Assembly (NCBI GenBank): GCA_015152525.1
Contig: SUTU01000018.1
Coordinates: 1-38,225 of the forward strand
From: Cyanobacteria bacterium SIG28
GTDB taxonomy: Bacteria > Cyanobacteriota > Vampirovibrionia > Gastranaerophilales > Gastranaerophilaceae
Length of the DNA: 38,225 nt
Direction of reading: 5' to 3'
Shown here: piece after piece, positions 273 to 4,924 of the stretch
Layout: each line of letters starts with the position of its first letter
Position numbering within the stretch: the stretch's first letter is position 1
Position numbers and translations under genes: made by a program
The notes under the pieces: generated by a model
What the model was told of the DNA's origin: nothing
The model's database searches: none
The model's input: the letters and a program-made list of their open reading frames with translations, nothing else

Positions 273-299
273 TAAAAAAAGAAGGTGTAAACACCTTCT
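273..299 (-). terminator. Rho-independent terminator after tRNA-Asp
   Basis: On the minus strand a perfect stem GAAGGTG/CACCTTC (281-298) is followed by seven T residues (274-280). It lies about 9 bp downstream of the tRNA-Asp 3' end, so it ends the tRNA transcript. Confidence 0.8.
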
Positions 300-307
300 C
301 TTTTTAA

Positions 308-384
308 TGGCGGGAACGACGAGGCTCGAACTCGCGACCTCATGCGTGACAGGCATGCGCTCTAACCAACTGAGCTACGCTCCC
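308..384 (-). tRNA. tRNA-Asp(GUC)
   Basis: This is a 77-nt cloverleaf on the minus strand. The acceptor stem is GGGAGCG/CGTTCCC with discriminator G and encoded CCA. The D arm contains AGTTGGTTAGAGC. The anticodon stem CATGC/GCATG holds the loop CTGTCAC, giving anticodon GTC for aspartate. The T arm contains GTTCGAG. The gene is the last unit of a transcript that begins near base 730 and passes through three tandem repeats carrying copies of its 5' 19 nt. Processing by RNase P must therefore choose the complete tRNA over three truncated look-alikes. Confidence 0.95.
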
Positions 385-693
385 ATATTTAATTTTCAGT
401 TCGGGTATTGTATTCAGTTGGTTAGAGCTTCCATTTTTCAGATACCGTTCGGCTCTGCCTCTCTGGGGCCAACTGAGCTACGCTCCCATATTTAATTTTT
501 AGTTCGGGTATTGTATTCAGTTGGTTAGAGCTTCCATTTTTTAGATACCGTTCGGCTCTGCCTCTCTGGGGCCAACTGAGCTACGCTCCCATATTTAATT
601 TTCAGTTCGGGTATTGTATTCAGTTGGTTAGAGCTTCCATTTTTCAGATACCGTTCGGCTCTGCCTCTCTGGGGCCAACTGAGCTACGCTCCC
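385..693 (-). repeat. Three 103-bp tandem repeats derived from tRNA-Asp
   Basis: Three head-to-tail units of exactly 103 bp (385-487, 488-590, 591-693) lie directly upstream of tRNA-Asp in its transcription direction. Units 1 and 3 look identical and unit 2 differs by two C-to-T changes. On the minus strand each unit starts with GGGAGCGTAGCTCAGTTGG, the first 19 nt of the tRNA (469-487, 572-590, 675-693). It then diverges and later contains GCTCTAACCAACTGA, the exact reverse complement of the tRNA D arm (plus-strand 414-428, 517-531, 620-634). The two parts can pair (CAGTTGG/CCAACTG, then AGAGC/GCTCT inside), so each unit can fold as a hairpin that hides the tRNA-like piece. There is no protein-coding potential and no spacers of CRISPR type. 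Confidence 0.9.
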
Positions 694-736: not shown

Positions 737-765
737 ACTATAACCCGAACATATTTTTTTTGCAA
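737..765 (-). promoter_or_regulatory. Promoter of the repeat array and tRNA-Asp
   Basis: On the minus strand -35 TTGCAA (760-765), a 17-bp spacer and -10 TATAGT (737-742) predict a start near 730. That places all three repeats and the tRNA on one transcript. The rest of the 694-910 gap holds only an A/T-rich stretch and the upstream region of the next gene. Confidence 0.55.
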
Positions 766-4528: not shown

Positions 4529-4924
4529 TTAATGATGACCGCCACAGTGATGTCCTTCACCGTGTCCGCCACAAACATGACCTTCACCATGTCCGCAAGC
4601 ATTTTCACCGGCAACTAATTCACTGTTCATATATAGTTTAACCAATTCACTAATCTCTAATTCAGGACAGCCGGTAATTACTTCAACACCATTTTGTTCA
4701 AACATCATCATCGGACGACCGCCAATTCCGCCAACCAAAGCCATTTCTACTCCCTGTTCCACAAGCCAATTAACACAAGAACAAGAAACGCCTTCTTCAG
4801 GTGCATCTGTTTTAATTTCAAGTATCTCTTTTGTTTCAGGATTAATTTCTACAAAACTAAATGTTTCACAATGTCCAAAATGTGAACATAATCTGCCTTC
4901 TAAAGTTGGAATAACTAATTTCAT
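4529..4924 (-). CDS. NifB/NifX-type iron-molybdenum cofactor domain protein with His-rich tail
   Basis: This 131-aa protein is a single dinitrogenase iron-molybdenum cofactor-binding domain (COG1433 type), an RNase H-like fold known to carry Fe-S or Fe-Mo clusters. The HFGHCETF motif (15-22), the VSCSC pair (47-50) and GGIGGRPMMMFEQNGVEVITG (65-85) are typical. The last ~23 residues are a His/Gly/Cys tail of two GHGEGHxCGGH units ending in HH, which looks like a metal-binding tag. There is no nif cluster nearby. In non-diazotrophs such proteins are usually uncharacterised, so a metal storage or chaperone role is only a guess. A strong Shine-Dalgarno, AAAAGGAG, precedes the ATG. It lies 33 bp after nagA. 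Confidence 0.8.
   Translation of the reverse strand: MKLVIPTLEGRLCSHFGHCETFSFVEINPETKEILEIKTDAPEEGVSCSCVNWLVEQGVEMALVGGIGGRPMMMFEQNGVEVITGCPELEISELVKLYMNSELVAGENACGHGEGHVCGGHGEGHHCGGHH

Follow-up and report, generated by a model that had tools for sequence, protein, structure and literature searches.

A tandem array copying the tRNA-Asp 5′ end may be one locus of a family of mobile DNA cassettes beside tRNA genes in Gastranaerophilaceae

Three tandem repeats that copy the start of the adjoining tRNA-Asp gene appear to belong to a lineage-specific family of DNA cassettes that are structured, apparently mobile and located beside tRNA genes, a reading to which we assign a probability of about 0.5. 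The array lies in the 38,225-nucleotide stretch that we analyzed (the window), which is one contig (C8) of the 1.89 Mb, 26-contig genome of Cyanobacteria bacterium SIG28. We preferred a mobile-DNA reading because units vary between congeners, because mirror-image units lie beyond tRNA terminators, and because a dispersed repeat of a related genome (G151) occurs in empty and filled versions near a transposase gene. In one gut bacterium, one tRNA gene in four adjoins repeats that copy its end, and repeats of this kind occur in most genomes of the family. If mobile, they would be a miniature element for which tRNA ends are both target and cargo, with the gene left intact, and a simple model for how elements settle at tRNA genes; if functional, they would regulate tRNA supply through competing folds, a single design being adapted to each tRNA. 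The arrays also provide variable markers between strains.

The tRNA-Asp array and its counterparts in the same genome

The 103-bp units are arranged head-to-tail on the minus strand, directly upstream of tRNA-Asp nucleotide 1 (Table 1), and contain no run of N. A sequence-only reading of this DNA had described three exact-length units, each opening with the first 19 nt of tRNA-Asp and differing by two changes in all, behind a single promoter. Each of these points was borne out: two positions set unit 2 apart from units 1 and 3, which are identical, and the TTGCAA-17-TATAGT element can be read as a sigma-70-like promoter at the place given. The units share 98-100% identity over 103 nt (BLAST E about 1e-46 to 1e-49), and the tandem triplet is not a chance match. 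Also common to the units are the six bases before the copied tRNA start (AAATAT), the perfect complement of the D-arm (TCAGTTGGTTAGAGC as read on the plus strand), and the closing leader segment TGAAAATTAAATAT, which precedes tRNA-Asp itself as well. The D-arm complement, the structured core of each unit and the recurrence of the design at eight further tRNA genes had escaped the sequence-only reading.

Table 1. Features of the tRNA-Asp locus (positions in the window)
Feature	Position	Strand	Basis
tRNA-Asp (GTC), intact	308-384	-	ARAGORN; Rfam RF00005, 68.3 bits
Unit 3, tRNA-proximal, 103 bp	385-487	-	
Unit 2, 103 bp, two differences from units 1 and 3	488-590	-	
Unit 1, promoter-proximal, 103 bp	591-693	-	
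Copy of tRNA-Asp nt 1-19, unit 3	469-487 (also 572-590, 675-693)	-	
Structured core of unit 3, CCCCAGAGAGGCAGAGCCGAACGG	445-468	-	comparison across tRNAs and genomes
15-nt perfect complement of the tRNA-Asp D-arm, unit 3	414-428 (also 517-531, 620-634)	-	inverted repeats
Leader segment TGAAAATTAAATAT, unit end just before the tRNA	385-398	-	boxA-like by eye
Promoter-like TTGCAA-17-TATAGT upstream of the array	737-765	-	read from sequence; sigma-70-like
Intrinsic terminator-like hairpin after tRNA-Asp	273-306	-	inverted repeat, then T-run

The Asp array had been treated as a lone odd locus, a view that gives way to a genome-wide and family-wide one. A search of the SIG28 genome with the Asp unit returned two more arrays, at tRNA-Gly(TCC) (3 x 133 bp) and tRNA-Lys(CTT) (4 x 123 bp), and inspection of the tRNA loci showed that 9 of the 34 tRNA genes bear one to four upstream units copying their own 5′ end. 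In addition to Asp (3 x 103 bp), Gly and Lys, these are one tRNA-Met (four clear units and a gap of N), a second tRNA-Met, tRNA-Ile and tRNA-Leu-TAG (two units each), and tRNA-Asn and tRNA-Arg-ACG (one unit each). Read on the core strand, a unit passes from local flank into the first ~11-19 nt of the tRNA end and then into a hairpin core placed in a tRNA arm; the core is often followed by a stretch of that arm with its reverse complement and then by a copy of the flank, after which comes the intact tRNA. Units of equal length within one array differ at 0-4 bases, which, together with patchy presence in relatives (below), supports the earlier proposal of recent expansion or homogenization.

Many tRNAs, with or without an array, are preceded by a TTGACAATTAAATA-like leader motif (window 385-398; L013-L050) that by eye resembles the boxA antitermination motif of rRNA operons; a 16S gene was sought in the SIG28 assembly for comparison with an rRNA leader, and none was found there. 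A second small repeat type, consisting of recurrent AGGGGTAAAT...GTTTAC hairpins, is also present in tRNA leaders (L128, L139, L155, L190, L212 and others).

A hairpin core and its placement in tRNA arms

The core common to many units has the form ACTCTGCCGA-hairpin-GAGAGG, with several interchangeable terminal loops (class B), and other units, including those of the Asp array, have the related arrangement GAGAGGC...GCCGAACGG (class A). Both arrangements hold a tandem G-A internal loop that, judged by eye, resembles a kink-turn, as does the GAGAGGC/GCCGA internal-loop motif of the Asp core itself. What links class A to the well-tested class B is a common design and motif and not homology of sequence, a point that weighs against the mobile-DNA reading of the Asp array. 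Stem positions of the hairpin vary with pairing retained; the Asp unit folded as DNA is weakly structured (z -1.17). The sequence before the core is mostly TGGC or TGGT, and TAG follows it in 54 of 220 cases.

The ACTCTGCCGA core was present in 254 of 264 sampled genomes of the same family, at 0-86 copies per genome, and in 4 of 22 sampled genomes from other families of the order, and a reversed-pattern control gave 2 hits in the 286 genomes. When one genome per species was scanned, at least 114 stretches matched the pattern, with ~14 chance matches estimated over the whole collection, and among the matches listed the taxon-named contigs were nearly all Gastranaerophilales or Melainabacteria. 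The exact class A pattern, which is too strict, was found in only 4 places. The core pattern had no match in viral contigs, and there is therefore no sign of a phage vehicle for it. Rfam 15 at its gathering score identified only the tRNA in the window, and a low-threshold Rfam scan of 20 array loci gave nothing above the gathering score except tRNA. Group I and II introns, T-box leaders and known ribozymes were dropped as candidates because Rfam returned no such match over the units.

The cores have sharply defined insertion points in the D-arm, the T-arm or the anticodon loop, where they replace a few nucleotides of the arm. In most units the copied segment stops at tRNA nt 11/12, or at nt 18-20, and tRNA sequence picks up again at nt 16-19 after the core; in several Pro, Val and Lys units the core stands exactly between G18 and G19. 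Near tRNAs, 139 of 154 distinct cores were on the tRNA strand, a set biased by the pattern used. In five genomes searched without this pattern bias, 43 cores were divided into about 30 in sense orientation at 5′ ends, 8 in antisense orientation at 3′ ends, and 5 elsewhere. In antisense units the core is placed either in the T-arm, preceded by 11 nt of the tRNA 3′ end (Glu, Met, Phe), or in the anticodon loop (Met). Their units are mirror images beyond the tRNA 3′ ends, T-arm complement included, and the tRNA terminator stands between such a unit and its tRNA. The suggestion that the units produce tRNA-half RNAs acting as RNase P decoys gained no support, since co-transcription is not expected for mirror-image units past terminators.

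Variation among relatives and cores away from tRNA genes

In four congeners examined, units at a given tRNA gene were present patchily. At tRNA-Asp, the SIG28 genome has three units, G018 and G023 have one each, G049 has one of another core class, and G060 has none; at tRNA-Gly-TCC, units were found in three genomes (in G018, of a different 155-nt class) and were absent from two. Presence, number and core class all differ at the same tRNA genes, and units have been gained, lost, exchanged and tandemly amplified among close relatives. In the comparison with relatives that had been proposed, unit number and presence varied; the lack of conservation named in advance as a refuting outcome was not observed, the system being genome-wide and family-wide. 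The idea that the array is a scar of repeated site-specific events proved right in its direction, in that insertion points are sharp and the number and presence of units vary among congeners.

The copied segment tracks the local tRNA. Units at tRNA-Leu-TAA of different species carry GCCCTTG or GCTCCAG, and Lys units carry GGGTGTG, GGGTGCG, GGGTGAG or AGGCTCG; a few units (L147, L167) are exceptions. In G018 a third core class forms 145-155 nt units at Gly-TCC, Arg-ACG and Arg-CCT (L077, L134, L135), with a similar GAGCAGGTTGACGAAGCGGA-like core at the three tRNAs and three different copied ends. The Met leader of G060 (L084) contains a degenerate partial tRNA-Met copy without a core, upstream of the intact tRNA-Met, and partial tRNA duplication can therefore happen without a core.

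Cores also occur away from tRNA genes. Of the 28 cores examined in G151, a genome with 86 pattern matches, 24 had no tRNA nearby; most of these lie inside a dispersed repeat that starts with TGTCTGAGTGGGACC, ends with CAGTTGACTATATGAAA, and is present in dozens of copies with unrelated flanks, in empty and filled versions. The empty sites read GTACAC-GGAGT-GCGAG and CTTACG-GAAGTG-ACCCC, and in filled copies the core replaces GGAGT or GAAGTG (for example, GTACAC-core-GCGAG). One copy of the repeat lies on each side of a G151 gene for a REP-associated tyrosine transposase (NF047646, above cut-off).

Five Y1 transposase matches were identified in the SIG28 genome, and for four of them a tRNA gene lies no more than 1.8 kb away (rough P of 8e-5, calculated post hoc for a proximity noticed afterwards). 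One of the five matches is on contig C15 (L344, 632-2590), where about 1.8 kb of sequence interrupts a core of a tRNA-Phe array at the apex of its hairpin; this insert contains a REP-associated tyrosine transposase gene and a 143-aa gene with no Pfam match. The GTAGGGTAGACT...AGTCTACC inverted repeat of this insert goes with the transposase, and the REP-associated tyrosine transposase of this genome (G000) has a different palindrome of its own. A paralogue of the 143-aa gene adjoins another REP-associated tyrosine transposase on contig C4 (L343). Y1 transposase was not detected in the core-rich genomes G093, G117, G155, G211, G233 and G304, or in G060 and G018, and it was found in one core-free genome. 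With the correlation incomplete, the transposase was rejected as a clean predictor of core number.

Mobile DNA, alternative explanations and known systems

A mobile-DNA reading explains why units use either tRNA end and either strand, why sites occur empty and filled, why presence is patchy, and why some cores lie away from tRNAs. The core would be recognized as folded single-stranded DNA, and the cassette would insert into the loop of a tRNA arm with duplication of the tRNA end, leaving the gene intact; arrays might then grow or shrink through recombination or slippage between the direct repeats. The candidate enzyme, by association only, would be a REP-associated tyrosine (Y1, HUH) transposase. 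Since tandem units can be divided in any register, no target-site duplication rule sets the unit boundaries. A pure insertion model does not require the bias of about 30:8 toward sense 5′ placement, and this bias counts against it. More tentatively, we consider a broader picture, a hitherto undescribed class of tRNA-targeting DNA cassettes whose hairpins, as folded single strands, enter tRNA arms, bring along or capture the local tRNA end and thereby rebuild the gene, pile up in tandem and are possibly reused by the host as self-trapping switches of pre-tRNA folding, at many tRNA genes simultaneously.

The strongest alternative, although unlikely on balance, is that the units act as a cis-acting RNA switch in the tRNA leader that would keep the precursor in a non-tRNA fold until release. 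The copied 5′ strand would pair with the 3′ acceptor strand of the tRNA and the complementary segment would trap the authentic D-arm; a protein binding the hairpin core, for instance, might bring about release, and additional units would strengthen or tune the effect. Consistent with this model, in the predicted minimum-energy folds of the last unit and its tRNA the native acceptor stem is replaced at 26 of 29 loci by pairing between the copied end and the 3′ acceptor strand, and most of these 26 folds also contain pairing of unit sequence to tRNA nt 8-30. The joint fold at Asp gains -11.9 kcal/mol over the separate folds, compared with a mean of -3.9 for shuffled units. These are equilibrium folds, which leave out co-transcriptional folding and RNase P, and minimal units and Leu units have no predicted trap. 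Sense placement behind a promoter predominates, as a switch would have it, but mirror-image units lie past terminators, on the untranscribed side. Similarly, the stems vary with pairing kept, but the ratio of G-T to A-C mismatches in them (21 to 12) gives no clear favor to RNA. Patchy presence among congeners and the occurrence of the core in dispersed repeats also argue against a switch.

The conservation of the copied ends bears on both readings. Across 24 single-unit loci, the copied 11 nt had 0 mismatches in 264 positions (0 of 144 for positions 1-6, which are free of pattern bias), whereas the adjacent 15-nt leaders differed at 97 of 360 (27%). We counted this against the mobile-DNA reading, as it could mean selection on RNA. 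However, unmutated copied ends can reflect either selection on the copied end or, equally, sequences that were real tRNA ends until a recent insertion. Because recent insertion predicts the same result, copied-end identity does not decide between DNA and RNA, and the two readings are not mutually exclusive.

It is improbable that the units are passive debris, in which slippage or unequal crossing-over duplicated the leader together with the 5′ end of the tRNA, with unrelated hairpins gathering in the dead copies. Tandem repeats expand readily, units inside an array are nearly identical, and the core-less tRNA-Met copy of G060 is what such a process would leave. This explanation was already weakened by recurrence, as the same core and insertion point are found at many tRNAs in hundreds of genomes; in addition, the copied ends show no decay, and a non-tRNA repeat exists in empty and filled versions. 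An artefact of metagenome binning is very improbable in general, even though arrays are often at contig ends and one (Met) contains a run of N, since the sequences are locus-specific and the same architecture recurs in many independent MAGs, some labelled sheep, goat, deer or horse; it is unlikely for the Asp array because such arrays come from different hosts and this one has no N run.

Among known systems, REP and REPIN palindromes, which are associated with REP-associated tyrosine transposases (RAYTs), are short, imperfect, non-autonomous and present in many copies (PMC3116915, PMC2817692, PMC3733652). The cassettes resemble them in having a short, dispersed palindromic unit with paired stems and 0-86 core matches per genome, and in the presence of a RAYT gene in the SIG28 genome. 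A cognate RAYT gene flanked by the repeat is at most possible: copies of the core-hosting repeat flank the G151 RAYT gene, and the SIG28 RAYT gene inside the split core has its own palindrome. They differ in that the cores are located in tRNA arms with a copied tRNA end, form tandem arrays, and are numerous in several genomes in which Y1 transposase was not detected. We did not file the cassettes under REPs because the tetranucleotide tag (GTAG/GGAG/CGTC) is not consistent at the foot of the core. A second comparison is with the mitochondrial double-hairpin elements and repetitive hairpin-forming elements of fungi and sponges, which are very small, scattered, near or in RNA genes, and of no known function (PMC2800124, PMC5910586). 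As in those elements, the core is inserted in or replaces loops (the D-, T- and anticodon arms and the two G151 repeat sites), and mobility is suggested by empty versus filled G151 copies and by array-free leaders of the same tRNA in congeners. In contrast, the cassettes are bacterial, carry the local tRNA end and often its complement, form tandem arrays, and have a core sequence conserved across many genera.

The 178-bp repeats of E. coli tyrT, associated with rtT RNA, are also tandem beside a tRNA, and each includes a tRNA-derived stretch of about 19 nt. It is the 3′ end that is duplicated in E. coli, downstream, at one locus (tRNA-Tyr), whereas here mainly 5′ ends are copied, upstream, at many tRNAs and around a common hairpin core; the rtT Rfam family had no match in the window or in the 20 array loci, where only tRNA was found. 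Integron arrays consist of tandem cassettes with attC sites, which are folded palindromes with variable terminal hairpins. The units described here share the tandem cassettes, the folded palindromes and the variable terminal hairpins, but they contain no coding cassettes and their target is a tRNA arm. To our knowledge, none of the compared systems has units that copy the adjoining tRNA end around a common hairpin at many tRNA genes, and the literature covered, which included few subscription journals, described neither arrays of this kind in the lineage nor bacterial examples of partial tRNA copies combined with palindromes. We regard the cassettes as a variant of small mobile hairpin repeats, with a fair chance that they merit a separate class.

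Two further features of the window were observed. Downstream of tRNA-Asp, positions 1-120 are the reverse complement of ...TTTTGCGAAATCGGGCAAGGGCAATTTTTTAGGAG..., and this sequence recurs directly after the REP-associated tyrosine transposase gene on contig C4 (L343, about 1840-1960); because a second copy sits there, we take the segment to be a dispersed repeat with inverted ends. At positions 4529-4924, the minus strand encodes a 131-aa protein with a Cys/His-rich repetitive tail (27-bp tandem repeat at 4535-4596).
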